The notes below the pieces were generated by a model. It saw nothing but the letters and a program-made list of their open reading frames with translations, did no database searches and was not told the DNA's origin. This document shows, in pieces, positions 5,789 through 54,634 of a stretch of 64,000 nt of DNA. The DNA comes from Streptomyces spiramyceticus (GTDB lineage Bacteria; Actinomycetota; Actinomycetes; Streptomycetales; Streptomycetaceae): NCBI RefSeq assembly GCF_028807635.1, contig NZ_JARBAX010000001.1, positions 757,001 through 821,000 of the forward strand, written 5' to 3'. The position numbers were made by a program, and so were the translations under genes. The stretch's first letter is position 1. Each line of letters begins with the position of its first letter.

Positions 5789-5815
5789 CATTCGTTGAGA
5801 GGCAGGGGCAGGGAC

Positions 5816-6277
5816 ATGGCAGAGCCGAGGATCTTCACGTCCGCCGACGAGCTGCGCGCCGGGGTCGGCGAGCAGCTGGGGCACAGCGACTGGCTGGAGG
5901 TCGACCAGAAGCGGATCGACCTTTTCGCCGATGCGACAGGCGATCACCAGTGGATCCATGTGGACCCCGAGAAGGCCGCGGCCGGCCCGTTCGGGTCGAC
6001 GATCGCGCACGGCTATCTGACGCTCTCGCTGCTGCCCGCACTGGTCCCGCAGATCATGCGGGTCGAGGGCATGAAGATGGGCGTCAACTACGGCACCAAC
6101 AAGGTGCGTTTCCCGTCCCCCGTGCCGGTCGGCTCGCGGCTGCGCGCGACGGCGGTGCTCAAGGACGTCACCGACGCGGGCGGCGGCGTACAGGTGACCG
6201 CCGTCGTCACGGTGGAGCGCGAGGGCGGCGACAAGCCGGCATGCGTGGCGGAGTCGGTGTCCCGTTACTACTTCTAG
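5816..6277 (+). CDS. MaoC-like (R)-specific enoyl-CoA hydratase
   Basis: A single-hotdog MaoC-family protein of 153 residues, the usual length for (R)-specific enoyl-CoA hydratases, which hydrate trans-2-enoyl-CoA to (R)-3-hydroxyacyl-CoA. The hydratase-2 motif is clear in [15 protein letters not shown], with Asp43 and His48 at the catalytic positions, followed by [16 protein letters not shown]. The start ATG at 5816 sits after a purine-rich ggcaggggcaggg. The gene lies between a shared operator-like palindrome and the convergent tetR. This fits a small fatty-acyl-CoA regulon with the acyl-CoA dehydrogenase further along (inference). Confidence 0.9.
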
Positions 6278-10165: not shown

Positions 10166-10954
10166 CTATCCCCCGTACGCCCCCGCCCACCCGTCCGCCG
10201 TGTCGTACGTCGGCACTCCCACCACATCCGCCTCGTCCCGAGCCACCGCCCCCGCAAGCTCCACCGCTCGGTGCACCGCCGCGCGGAAGAGCAGCGAGCC
10301 CAGGCTGATTCTGGCCACCCCTAGCGCGCCCAAGCGGGCCACCGTCAAACCGCCCGGCGTGTACAGGACATTGAGCGGCGTCTCGTACTTCGCCGTCAGA
10401 GTCCCGATGACCGGCTCGTCCTGCAGGCCGGGGACGAACAGACCGTCCGCGCCCGCGTCTTCGTAGGCCGACAGCCGGTACGCCGTCTCGTCCGCGTGCC
10501 CCGGAAGCCAGTACGTGTCCGTACGGGCGTTCACGAACAGCGTGGGCGCCGCGTCCTTCACCGCGCGGATCAGCTCACGCTGGTACGCCACGGGGGCGAG
10601 GGCCCCACCGGGGCGGCCGTCTTCGATGTTCACGCCGGCCACCCCGACGCGTACCAGATCCGCCGCCAGCTCGGCGACCTCCGCAGGCTCCCCGCCGAAG
10701 CCTCCCTCGATGTCCACGCTCACCGGGACCGTCAACCGGGCCAGGCCGCGCCCGAGTTGGAGCGTCTCCTCGCGGGCGGCGCCCGTCGCGTCGGACTTTC
10801 CGGCGGCCGACGCGACGCCGAGGCTGGTCGTGCCGATCGCGGCGAAACCGGCCTCGGCGAGCGCGGCGGCGGACGCGTGGTCCCAGGCGTTGGGCAGGAG
10901 AAGCGGGGTGCCCGGGCGGTGGTGCAGGCCGCGGAACTGCTCGTAACGGTTCAT
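10166..10954 (-). CDS. Isocitrate lyase/PEP-mutase superfamily protein
   Basis: A 262-residue beta-barrel protein of the PEP mutase/isocitrate lyase superfamily. Family signatures are LLLPNAWDHASA, GTTSLGVA, VSVDIEGGFG (Mg-binding Asp), VNIEDG and FVNARTDTYW. The members closest in pattern are uncharacterised 'phosphonomutase-like' carboxyvinyl lyase relatives; the catalytic KKCGH of isocitrate lyase is absent. The start overlaps the stop of the upstream P450-like gene (ATGA), so the two are coupled. No phosphonate genes lie nearby, so a C-C lyase or hydrolase activity is as likely as P-C chemistry. Confidence 0.85.
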   Translation of the reverse strand: MNRYEQFRGLHHRPGTPLLLPNAWDHASAAALAEAGFAAIGTTSLGVASAAGKSDATGAAREETLQLGRGLARLTVPVSVDIEGGFGGEPAEVAELAADLVRVGVAGVNIEDGRPGGALAPVAYQRELIRAVKDAAPTLFVNARTDTYWLPGHADETAYRLSAYEDAGADGLFVPGLQDEPVIGTLTAKYETPLNVLYTPGGLTVARLGALGVARISLGSLLFRAAVHRAVELAGAVARDEADVVGVPTYDTADGWAGAYGG

Positions 10955-11757
10955 GAAGAGGTCTCCTCAAGGAGTACGTCGAGTACGCCGCAGGCCAGCG
11001 CCACGGCGTGCAAGGATCCCGGGCACGGGCGCATGCCGTGCCCGAAGGGAGCGTCGGCGGCCGCGAGGTCCAGAGGCACCTCGGTGCCCTCGGCGACGGG
11101 CCGGCCGTGCAGGGTCGCCCCCGCGGCGGCAACCCGCTGGGTGCCACGCACAGGCGGGTCGAGGCGCAGCGTCTCGGCCACCAACTCGTCGGCGCCCTGG
11201 CCGGATTGTGACGGTCGCGCGGCAAGCGCGTTCGTGATCAGGGCCGCCGTCGCGTCACACGTCTGCACGAGGAGCCCGATCCGGTTCGCGACGGCCTCGG
11301 GCTCACCGTCGGGCAGCAGGACCACCAGCGTCCGTACGCCCTCGTCCGCCTGGGCCATCGCCCCGGGCGCCGCCCCCGGCCGGTACGCGGCGGCCACCAC
11401 GCGCGTCGCCGCGACGACCTCGGCGAACGCGTCGACCTCGTCGACCTCGTCGGATCCACCGCGCGCTCCGAGCGCGGCCCCCAGCACCGCCACCGGCACA
11501 TACGGCGCCGCGTCCCGCGTGACCTGCCGCGTCAGGGACCTGGCCCCGGCCCGGAGACGGGCGGGGTCGAGCAGCCGCAACTCCCCTTCCGTCAAAGCCC
11601 GTCGGCGTACATGCACCGCACCGTTGCTGAAGCGCGGCACCGTGCGGCGCAGCCACCGCATGGTGCCCATCGGCGCGGCCCCGTCAGCGGTGGCGGGCGG
11701 CACGATGAACCGGGGGTCGCAGAGCACGGCACGTACGTCCGGCACAGGCGTCGTCAT
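10951..11757 (-). CDS. Unusually short cytochrome P450-like protein
   Basis: A 268-residue protein with the P450 end motifs: ExxR as E195-T-L-R198 and the haem loop FGHGMRPCPG at 238-247 with Cys245 as thiolate ligand. An I-helix-like LLVQTCDATAALI (163-175) has an Asp-Ala-Thr in place of the usual acid/alcohol pair. Normal P450s are about 400 residues. Here the N-terminal beta region and the segment between the K-helix and the haem loop are missing or compressed (ValPro..LDLAAADAPFGHG). The compact length is open-frame, not a visible frameshift. It is coupled to the PEP-mutase-like gene downstream and divergent from the graspetide cassette. Whether it binds haem and works is open. Confidence 0.7.
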   Translation of the reverse strand: MTTPVPDVRAVLCDPRFIVPPATADGAAPMGTMRWLRRTVPRFSNGAVHVRRRALTEGELRLLDPARLRAGARSLTRQVTRDAAPYVPVAVLGAALGARGGSDEVDEVDAFAEVVAATRVVAAAYRPGAAPGAMAQADEGVRTLVVLLPDGEPEAVANRIGLLVQTCDATAALITNALAARPSQSGQGADELVAETLRLDPPVRGTQRVAAAGATLHGRPVAEGTEVPLDLAAADAPFGHGMRPCPGSLHAVALACGVLDVLLEETSS

Positions 11758-11993
11758 GCACCGAACGTAAGCCCGTGACTCTTCGGCCGCCGCCGAAGAG
11801 TGCGGCGACGTGTTGTACGGCTTTCGCGTTGCTCCTGTTCCAGCCACGCACGGTGTGACGTTCTTCACCCCGATAAGGCCCGAATATCACGCAGCGTAGC
11901 GACATGTGTACATCTTCTTTACGTACTGTTACGTGTGGCAAGGCAAGTCCGCAGGACCGCACGACCGCACGCCACAGGCACTGAAGGAGACTC
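11758..11993 (+). promoter_or_regulatory. Intergenic promoter region of the graspetide cassette
   Basis: 236 bases between divergent genes. The part nearest the precursor gene is AT-richer than its surroundings and contains overlapping palindrome-like words (acatgtgtacat, tacgtactgttacgtg around 11901-11937), plausible sites for a -10 and operator. No specific factor can be named. Confidence 0.4.
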
Positions 11994-12185
11994 ATGAAAC
12001 CGTTCGTGTTGAACTACGCACTTCCGGCGGAGAATTCAGCAGTCACCCTCCCTTACACCTACGACTCCGCACTCCAGTTGAACGTCCTGCCCGACGGACG
12101 CCCTGCCATCGCCGACCGGGCAGTGCTCCTGGCAGCGGGCACCACGACGTCAACAGCCGGTTCCCAGACGCACTTCGACGACTGA
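11994..12185 (+). CDS. tgmA: Graspetide precursor peptide (ATP-grasp target RiPP)
   Basis: A 63-residue peptide matching the ATP-grasp target family. It has a conserved-looking leader (LPYTYDSALQLNVLPDGRPAI, here given from 19 on in parts) and a hydroxyl-rich C-terminal core T50-T-T-S-T-A-G-S-Q-T-H-F-D-D63. In this family the ATP-grasp partner joins Thr/Ser side-chain hydroxyls to Asp/Glu carboxyls as omega-esters. Here the donors would be T50-T54, S57 and T59, with the acceptors D62 and D63 (inference). The ATG at 11994 has a strong ggaga Shine-Dalgarno. The ligase gene begins 17 bases after the stop. The product is small, so it would be missed by length filters. Confidence 0.88.
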   Translation: MKPFVLNYALPAENSAVTLPYTYDSALQLNVLPDGRPAIADRAVLLAAGTTTSTAGSQTHFDD

Positions 12186-12202
12186 CCGGCCCGGCGGCGT
12201 CG

Positions 12203-13132
12203 ATGACTGTGCTGATCCTGACCTGCCCGCAGGATGTGACGACGGACATGGTGGTGGCCAAGCTGCACGCACGGGGGGTCCCTTTGGTGCGTTTCGATCC
12301 TGCGGATCTGCCCGAGGAAGCCACCATGTCGGCGGAGTACATCAGTGGCGACTTCGACGGCTATCTGTCGTCCGAAGGGCGCATGGTGAGCATGAGTGGC
12401 CTGCGCTCCATATGGGTACGCAGGCCGGGCGAGCCCGCGGCACACGCCCCCGAGCCGTCGGAGTGGCTCACCGCCGAGTCGCGGCAGGCCCTGTACGGGA
12501 TGCTGTATTCCACGACCGCACGGTGGATGAACCATCCCTGCGTGGCAGCGCAGGCCCGCTGCAAGCCATGGCAACTGCGGGTTGCCCATCGCAGCGGTTT
12601 CGCCGTGCCCCCCACGGTCGTGACCACGTTCCCTCGCGTGGCCCGCCAATTCGCGGCGCAGCACCGGGACATCGTGGTGAAGTCCGCTTCGGGACCGCCG
12701 CCCGGTGATCCGCCGATCGCGCTTCCCACCACCCGCATCGGGCCGGAGGCGGACTTCGACGGCGTCGCGGCCGGGCCCACGCTCCTCCAGCAGTACATCC
12801 CCAAGCGGGCCGACATCCGGCTGACCTGTGTGGGCGGGCGACTGTTCGCGGCCCGCAAGGAATCGCCCTCCGGGCAGGTGGACGGGCGATACGCCGCGAC
12901 CGGTGAGGCCTGGGAGCCGGCCGACGTGCCCGATCGCGTGGCCCGGGCTGTCCATGAATACACCGAGCTTGCCGGTCTGGCTTACGGAGCTTTCGACTTC
13001 GCCGAGGATGCCGAGGGCCTGTGGTGGTTCCTGGAGTGCAATCAGGGGGGCCAGTTCGGCTTTGTCGAGCTGGAGACGGGTCAGCCCATCGCGGAGGCGG
13101 TCGCTTCCTGGCTGGCCACCGCGGCTGCGTAG
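12203..13132 (+). CDS. tgmB: ATP-grasp ribosomal peptide maturase (SAV_5884/MvdD-like)
   Basis: A 309-residue ATP-grasp ligase of the graspetide type. The N-terminal region (FDPADLP at 31-37, WVRRP at 71-75) matches the pre-ATP-grasp half of MvdC/MvdD-like enzymes. The ATP-grasp half has VVKSASG (Lys160), a QQYIPKRADIRLT segment, the metal-binding Asp265 in AFDFAED, and Glu278/Asn280 in LECNQGGQFGFVE. It should activate acidic side chains of the adjacent precursor as acyl phosphates for ester (or amide) ring closure. The start ATG at 12203 is family-like (MTVLILTCPQDVT) though its Shine-Dalgarno is weak, so coupling to the precursor is likely. No methyltransferase, protease or ABC exporter gene is adjacent. 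Confidence 0.88.
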   Translation: MTVLILTCPQDVTTDMVVAKLHARGVPLVRFDPADLPEEATMSAEYISGDFDGYLSSEGRMVSMSGLRSIWVRRPGEPAAHAPEPSEWLTAESRQALYGMLYSTTARWMNHPCVAAQARCKPWQLRVAHRSGFAVPPTVVTTFPRVARQFAAQHRDIVVKSASGPPPGDPPIALPTTRIGPEADFDGVAAGPTLLQQYIPKRADIRLTCVGGRLFAARKESPSGQVDGRYAATGEAWEPADVPDRVARAVHEYTELAGLAYGAFDFAEDAEGLWWFLECNQGGQFGFVELETGQPIAEAVASWLATAAA

Positions 13133-13185
13133 GCCGCGCGTACGTGAGCGGGTGCCAGTGCGGGTCCCCCGTCTGCCCTCAAACG

Positions 13186-13216
13186 CCGGACGGGCTGGAT
13201 TTACCAGCCCGTCCGG
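13186..13216. terminator. 13-bp bidirectional terminator
   Basis: ccggacgggctgg (13186-13198) and ccagcccgtccgg (13204-13216) form a perfect stem with loop attta, followed by a G-run. It lies between the convergent ATP-grasp and MHS transporter genes. Confidence 0.85.
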
Positions 13217-13222
13217 GGGGGT

Positions 13223-14563
13223 CTACCGCACCGCGTCCGCCGCCGCCCGCTTCGCCAGCACCCTGATCGACAGCAGGGCGATCACCGCGAGGCCCACGAT
13301 GTACCCCGACACCGCCATCGACGTACCGAACACCTCAAGCAGCAGCACCATCACGAACGGCGCCAGCCCGCCCCCGAAGACCGCCGCGATCTGATATCCG
13401 AGCGATGCCCCGGTGTATCGCATCTCCGCCGTGAACAGCTCCGCGAACAGCGCCGCCTGCGGCCCGTACATGATGCTCAGGAAGCAGCTGCACACGAACG
13501 TGCCCACCGCCAGCCACACCAGCGACCCCGTGTCGATCAGCAGGAACATCGGTACCGCCCACACCAGCAGGCCCACCGCACCCGCCGCGTAGATCCGCAG
13601 TCGCCCGATACGGTCCGAGAGCGCCGCAGCCGCCGGGATCAGCGCCAGCTGGGTGAGGCTGACGCACAACGACACCGCGAGAACCGCGCTGCGCTTCATG
13701 TCCAGTTCGCGCGTCGCGTAGTCCAGCACGCCGGTGATGATGATGTAGAACGTCGCGGTATTGACGGCGAACGAACCACCGGCCAGGAACACCGTGCCGA
13801 GATGCTTCGTCAGGATCGTACGCAGCGGCGACCGGGCGGCGTCCGCGCCCTTCTCCTGCTCCGCCAGAGCCCGTTCGGCCTCCCGGAAGGCAGGTGTCTC
13901 CTCGACCCGCGTGTGGATGTACCAGGCGAGTACGAGCACGAGGATGCCCACGAAGAACGGCACCCGCCATCCCCACGACGCGAAGGCGCTCTCACTGGTG
14001 GTCGCACCCGCGATGAGGAAGACGGTGTTGGCGGTCACCACACCGATCGGCACACCGAGCTGGACCAGGCTGCCGTACAGGCCGCGCTTCCCCTCCGGGG
14101 CGTACTCCGTGGCCATCAGCATCGCGCCGCCCCACTGCGCACCGACCGCGATGCCCTGGGCGACGCGGAGCAGGACCAGCAGGATCGGTGCCGCGATGCC
14201 GATCGTCTCGTACGTCGGCAGGAGGCCGATTCCGGTGGTGGCGAGGCCCATCAGGGTCAGGGCCATTACCAGCATCGGCTTGCGGCCGCGCTTATCACCC
14301 AGCTGACCTGCGATGATGCCGCCGACGGGGCGGGCGAGGAAGCCGACGGCAAAGGTGGCGAAGGCGGCGAGCACACCCGCCGACGAGCTGCCGGACGGGA
14401 AGTACAGGTCTCCGAGGACGAGAGCCGCTGCGATGCCGAAGACGAAGTAGTCGTACCACTCGACGGCGGACGCGAGGGCGGCCGCAGTGGCGACTTTGCG
14501 GCGATTGCGGTCGGCGGGCGGGGAGTTCGTGGTGTCCGTGAGCGGGGAAGGTGCCGTGTCCAT
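13223..14563 (-). CDS. MHS-family MFS transporter (ProP/ShiA-like)
   Basis: A 446-residue, 12-span major facilitator of the metabolite:H+ symporter family. The N-terminal ASAVEWYDYFVFG, the GQLGDKRGRKPML loop between spans 2 and 3, and VAQGIAVGAQWGGA in span 4 are typical of this family, which moves osmolytes, shikimate, dicarboxylates or aromatic acids. The substrate cannot be told from sequence. The ATG at 14563 (MDTAPSPL) is preceded by ggagtg. It is a single gene; 228 bases separate it from the alcohol dehydrogenase gene upstream and hold a duplicated 12-mer (ggacgtaacagg, 14590-14613). Confidence 0.9.
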   Translation of the reverse strand: MDTAPSPLTDTTNSPPADRNRRKVATAAALASAVEWYDYFVFGIAAALVLGDLYFPSGSSSAGVLAAFATFAVGFLARPVGGIIAGQLGDKRGRKPMLVMALTLMGLATTGIGLLPTYETIGIAAPILLVLLRVAQGIAVGAQWGGAMLMATEYAPEGKRGLYGSLVQLGVPIGVVTANTVFLIAGATTSESAFASWGWRVPFFVGILVLVLAWYIHTRVEETPAFREAERALAEQEKGADAARSPLRTILTKHLGTVFLAGGSFAVNTATFYIIITGVLDYATRELDMKRSAVLAVSLCVSLTQLALIPAAAALSDRIGRLRIYAAGAVGLLVWAVPMFLLIDTGSLVWLAVGTFVCSCFLSIMYGPQAALFAELFTAEMRYTGASLGYQIAAVFGGGLAPFVMVLLLEVFGTSMAVSGYIVGLAVIALLSIRVLAKRAAADAVR

Positions 14564-54443: not shown

Positions 54444-54634
54444 CGTGTGATCTCCTTGCGGCTCAAGGGGAATTGGGGATGTGGGCGCTGGGGAAAGCGC
54501 CCTGTGATCCGGATCACATAGATGCTGTGCAATCGCTAAATTACGCGCGAGTAGCTGAAGAGTGAAGTGACGCGTCGGTAAAAATTGACGAAGAGTCAAT
54601 AGGGGTGGCTCACCGGCCGGTTGGGACGGCAGGT

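Follow-up and report, generated by a model that had tools for sequence, protein, structure and literature searches.

The two-gene locus at 11994..13132 of the window (the whole stretch of DNA analyzed here, 64,000 nucleotides from Streptomyces spiramyceticus) raises the question of whether a short peptide and a single ATP-grasp enzyme make up a complete graspetide system with no methyltransferase beside them, and which residues of the peptide would then be joined. The precursor gene lies at 11994..12185 on the forward strand, with its ATG at 11994 and its stop codon ending at 12185, and encodes 63 residues. The ligase (graspetide synthetase) gene follows at 12203..13132 on the same strand, with its ATG at 12203 and its stop codon ending at 13132, and encodes 309 residues. 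Both are intact reading frames, and the coordinates agree with the earlier note, which had placed a 63-residue precursor 17 bases before the start codon of an ATP-grasp gene. An AAGGAG stretch at 11984..11989 (forward strand), spotted by eye upstream of the precursor, resembles a ribosome site. The genome of 7.08 Mb has one match each to TIGR04187 and TIGR04186 in a profile search, and no RNA family reaches its gathering score in 11500-13600.

The precursor matches Pfam PF14404 (Strep_pep) at 123.9 bits against a cut-off of 25 (E 2.8e-36), over residues 1-63 of a 63-position model, and NCBIfam TIGR04186 at 49 bits against a cut-off of 25 (E 5e-13), and the ligase matches TIGR04187 at 375 bits against a cut-off of 350 (E 2.7e-112). 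Since the precursor exceeds the cut-off of PF14404 and the ligase that of TIGR04187, this is a graspetide locus of a catalogued family; the earlier reading of it as such holds, and the matches are not due to chance. The family was already known as PF14404. Compared with other PF14404 precursors paired with TIGR04187 (SAV_5884-type) ligases, the window peptide looks ordinary, with no difference found, and the locus is genuine, intact, and typical of a two-gene graspetide family already described. The comparison contributes three things: it shortlists four ester donors, accounts for the lack of a methyltransferase, and points to a site conserved upstream.

The preferred reading, which is given a probability of nearly nine in ten, is that of a self-contained two-gene graspetide unit of the Streptomyces PF14404 family together with the following mechanism. 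Recruitment of the ligase would depend on the PF segment near the N-terminus of the leader, and the enzyme would spend ATP to phosphorylate the terminal D62 and D63 so that Thr or Ser side chains, presumably from among T51, S53, S57, and T59, could attack. The product would carry omega-ester rings, most likely two but perhaps one. Enzymes encoded elsewhere would remove the leader and export the product, with processing an indirect conclusion and secretion an assumption, and this step is counted against the reading. A regulator binding TGTGA-N6-TCAC would set expression. Of these elements, the family, the order of the genes, the conservation, the distinct ligase branch, and the site upstream come directly from the comparison, and ring formation, the donors, the number of rings, the regulation, and the processing are predictions. 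Graspetide synthetases in general phosphorylate a carboxylate, which Ser, Thr, or Lys then attacks (PMC13097080).

The ligase also matches the MvdC and MvdD families, each below its own cut-off, and the RimK family at 35 bits. Among solved structures, the nearest by sequence is 9bou_A at 411 bits, followed by the microviridin-type ligases 5ig8, 7m4s (AMdnB), and 5ig9 of the same enzyme family at 90-115 bits. The entries 5ig8 and 5ig9 are taken here to be MdnB and MdnC, respectively, and the leader and ring pattern of the microviridin type are presumably unlike those of the window peptide. The earlier note had named a ligase outside the peptide-maturing ATP-grasp families as a ground against its reading; the homologue search places the enzyme inside them, by the TIGR04187 and 9bou matches, and this sequence-based ground therefore falls away. 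Residues E278 and N280, which we take to bind metal, are invariant in all 25 aligned ligases. A literature search for SAV_5884, the NCBI protein names, or 9BOU found nothing.

One genome per species was scanned for relatives of the ligase, and the best 80 of the 428 found were kept; 79 of these carry a Streptomyces title (one is a MAG) and one is Wenjunlia. The nearest ligase, from Streptomyces sp. ISL-98, is 97% identical. Across 41 of these relatives the identity to the window ligase is 69-97%, and it is 33-37% to the 30 ligases that score best in the wider family. Structure 9bou is 62% identical to the window ligase, 57-70% to the 41 relatives, and 33-36% to the 30 others. A tree was built from 72 ligases, 42 of them of the present kind (that of the window and those of 41 relatives). 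These 42 are set apart from the others by a branch with an SH-aLRT of 100, which is long according to a warning of the tool. A core-type reading frame ends 6-38 nt before the ligase in all 80 related loci. In one of them, L017, the frame of the leader differs from that of the core at about 5790-5985, through either sequencing error or real damage.

The peptide can be divided provisionally into a leader (about residues 1-48) and a core (about residues 49-63), both within 11994..12185 of the forward strand. The core GTTTSTAGSQTHFDD, residues 49-63 at 12138..12182 (forward strand), is near-invariant by both conservation and pN/pS. The earlier count of seven core hydroxyls (T50, T51, T52, S53, T54, S57, and T59) and two terminal Asp residues is correct. 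In 259 sequences, taken from the 80 loci and from 179 of 181 database proteins after clustering (two sets that are not independent of each other), T51, S53, A55, G56, S57, and T59 are constant, and variation occurs at T50 (S, A), T52 (A, V, C), T54 (K, Q), and Q58. The 179 proteins were retained for their HFDD ending, so the constancy of H60-D63 among them is by choice; candidates in the protein searches are moreover gathered by shared short words, which together with the HFDD filter favors like cores. Two proteins were not retained: in P0024 the frame is lost after STA, and P0174, encoded on a short contig, carries Pro in place of His60 in an otherwise identical core. The 80 loci were picked by the ligase alone, and all of them have the THFDD ending. 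D62 and D63 are present in 80/80 loci and in 180/181 proteins, in sets partly selected by this C-terminal ending. Literature text searches found no mention of STAGSQTHFDD and, for THFDD, only papers whose titles are unrelated.

Selection is also concentrated in the core, which has a pN/pS of 0.12 in 81 loci, compared with 0.41 for the 15 codons preceding it and 0.58 for codons 1-33 (78 loci in register), and the core is therefore the constrained part of the precursor. Such purifying selection across the relatives, together with the two intact genes of the window, leaves very little room for the idea that the locus is a decayed or silent remnant. That idea could draw on the frame-split L017, and it is regarded as hardly credible.

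Because T51, S53, S57, and T59 do not change, the possible ester donors are cut from seven to four, and these four are the likely donors as judged from the alignment. The donors still outnumber the acceptors, since D62 and D63 are the only acids in the core, which is counted against the preferred reading. The earlier limit of at most two rings is slightly too strict: the available text of PMC10787088 postulates an ester between a side chain and the C-terminus in SsfA, and a third ring is for that reason possible in the window peptide. The ester rings themselves are predicted from sequence. At the other end of the precursor, P3 and F4 are invariant in 20 of 20 aligned precursors of A1 and in 20 of 20 of A2. 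According to the part of PMC13003496 available, ThfB requires the RPFG segment of the ThfA leader, and by analogy the PF at residues 3-4 may serve as the recognition motif of the ligase.

The same residues bear on a different role for the enzyme, namely that it attaches a free amino acid, or a second protein, to the C-terminus or side chains of the precursor and makes no internal rings. Coupling of amino acids to proteins is another activity of ATP-grasp ligases, as the RimK match illustrates, and the sole conserved carboxylates of the core are both terminal. Against this, the best matches of the ligase are ring-making maturases (TIGR04187, MvdC, and MvdD) and related solved ligases, and a tail-adding enzyme would have no obvious need of four invariant hydroxyls. 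This role is considered distinctly unlikely, and ring formation remains the preferred reading. No solved structure of the precursor was found in the structure search, which gave one chance match (E 1.5).

The absence of a methyltransferase, which the earlier note had stressed, is real, as none lies beside the pair, but the emphasis was misplaced. A PIMT-like methyltransferase was found in only one of the 80 related loci with flanks of up to 6 kb (L069, about 3 kb beyond the ligase), and several of these loci have flanks shortened by contig ends. In the 60 best-scoring TIGR04186/TIGR04187 loci of the genus, which are not a random sample and include some places found by both searches, a methyltransferase was found in 56 with flanks of 1.5 kb (27/30 TIGR04186 and 29/30 TIGR04187 loci). 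The same six methyltransferase queries were used for both groups; two of them (L003 and L006) were wrong-strand frames, and the best matches came from L002 and L005. Within this family, then, absence is the norm. It would also make chemical sense: with no loop aspartate in the core for it to act on, a methyltransferase would not be needed.

The known systems that do carry the enzyme are the group 13 peptides fuscimiditide and amycolimiditide, which, like the window peptide, are actinobacterial ATP-grasp graspetides. In the accessible text of PMC12291112 and PMC13001092 they have Thr-Asp esters, and the RPFG leader segment of ThfA is a further point of likeness. Unlike the window locus, they have a methyltransferase and a methylated loop Asp. 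The window locus could be of this group with its methyltransferase lost or borrowed in trans, and the genome does hold 11 TIGR04188 matches elsewhere, none over the cut-off and the nearest more than 1 Mb away on the same contig. Six of the 11 are long and PIMT-like, on C1 and C2 of the genome. The locus itself has no adjacent TIGR04188 PIMT-type methyltransferase, its core has no internal Asp that could form an aspartimide (the acids being D62 and D63 only), and 79 of the 80 relatives equally lack the enzyme. The ligase is off the methyltransferase-linked branch, separated by the long, fully supported branch described above, and shares 33-37% identity with the methyltransferase-linked ligases found within the genus. 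The precursors also differ in kind. Those of the methyltransferase-linked loci, derived from match coordinates with 5 of 30 printed on the wrong strand, have several Asp residues before the C-terminus and match PF14408 (4/4 tested), and those of the present kind match PF14404 (3/3 tested). On the ligase branch, the PF14408 precursors, and the 79 relatives, a lost or borrowed methyltransferase is rejected as highly improbable, and a locus with no need of one is preferred.

The window locus is probably of the prunipeptin type. The prunipeptin cluster reportedly consists of a precursor and a ligase only. Prunipeptin (Unno and Kodani 2021; MIBiG BGC0002725) belongs, like the window, to Streptomyces and is likely the published relative of the window locus. 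A title in the reference list of PMC13097080 describes it as a bicyclic peptide of S. prunicolor, and the accessible part of PMC11888242 gives its cluster family 3,589 members, 99.53% of them in Streptomyces. No S. prunicolor protein is among the matches listed (the best 120 of 175 and the best 120 of 342, with names abbreviated and most clusters under one name). In the part of PMC8939145 available, Makarova et al. describe a large cluster of precursors with a shared leader, in an actinobacterial branch, that spans groups 8, 9, and 11 of an earlier scheme.

Around the pair, a P450-like gene on the reverse strand and a PEP-mutase gene (Pfam match) are present, as the earlier note reported of its divergent neighbors, but they are incidental and not common to the relatives. 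The short P450-like protein (10954-11757, reverse strand) scores 15.4 bits against a Pfam cut-off of 22.8. It has a FGHGMRPCPG stretch, read by eye, which looks like a haem-binding loop, and it weakly resembles the P450-derived glycosyltransferase activators, at 33 bits against a cut-off of 343. An MFS transporter gene lies downstream of the pair on the reverse strand. Among the 81 loci, only the precursor and ligase recur throughout (reading frames of at least 80 residues), and the next most frequent family, MFS-like by eye and several kb upstream, occurs in 16/81, with the other families printed at 12/81 or fewer. The comparison covered reading frames of at least 80 residues that pass a base-composition filter, so smaller shared genes could be missed; a cruder gene caller gave the same picture of the neighbors but missed 10 of the 81 ligases, including that of the window. 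The P450, PEP mutase, and MFS transporter genes were therefore rejected as cluster members, as none recurs beside the pair in relatives. Among reading frames of this size, no family of proteases or exporters recurs generally around the 81 loci, so leader removal and export would depend on genes elsewhere, or the peptide may stay unexported.

The precursor profile A1 matches 165 of 295 genus genomes sampled (E up to 0.001), 160 of them better than 1e-20 (G085, G166, G171, G204, and G274 are weaker); more than half of the sampled genomes are thus positive. In a sample of 394 genomes of the class, 23 match, of which 22, the window's own included, are within the genus, and the single match outside it (E 3e-4) looks spurious. 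A hand count with rounded sizes covered the 34 A1 copies listed for 30 genomes that consist of a single contig, and 25 of these copies fall in the outer 20% at one end or the other.

Upstream of the precursor, a TGTGA-N6-TCAC inverted repeat, TGTGACGTTCTTCAC at 11854..11868 (no strand assigned), is a candidate operator that recurs in the relatives. The exact pattern occurs within 250 nt upstream of the precursor in 34 of 81 loci, the window included, against a mean of 0.1 loci expected from dinucleotide shuffling. The spacing is narrow, with 32 of the 35 sites at 98-116 nt from the start codon, two (the window and L011) at 140, and one at 223. In the 80 relatives there are 34 matches in 24,800 nt upstream and 9 in 972,914 nt elsewhere. 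The related loci are not independent, and the shuffle expectations take no account of kinship; this dependence and the restriction of the exact site to 34 of 81 loci are counted against the preferred reading. Among the 47 loci lacking an exact site, 10 score above the 1% level of mononucleotide shuffles, five of them with the site at 100-103 nt, and 37 do not. In the wider family, the 30 top-scoring TIGR04186 loci all lack the pattern (0/30); a methyltransferase was found in 27 of them. In shape it resembles the sites of CRP-type regulators or of BldD. A factor that binds at this candidate site probably controls expression. A search of the binding-site literature gave nothing usable on Streptomyces in the texts accessible, and neither a terminator nor a sigma-70-like promoter was found within 11758-13250; the lack of such a promoter is counted against the preferred reading.

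A near-constant peptide with a shared upstream site suggests a common role across the family, for which the accessible parts of the literature found give no function. The near-frozen core is unlike peptides in an arms race. A tentative and, taken as a whole, doubtful proposal is that the PF14404 peptide is no toxin or antibiotic of the diversifying kind and may instead be a genus-wide, near-invariant ring peptide with a part in growth or development, either as a signal or as an effector inside the cell. It would be made by an autonomous two-gene unit that has a promoter of its own, and its expression would be tied through the conserved TGTGA-N6-TCAC operator to a global regulator of the CRP type or similar.

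The sole other TGTGA-N6-TCAC match in the window is a perfect palindrome, TGTGATCCGGATCACA, at 54503-54518. It has no gene call and lies within two open reading frames, with mechanical reading-frame starts nearby at 54599 (reverse strand) and 54621 (forward strand). Downstream of the inverted repeat at the present locus, a second block, ACGTACTGTTACGTGT at 11921-11936, is common to the window and its near relatives L011, L012, L013, L014, and L018.
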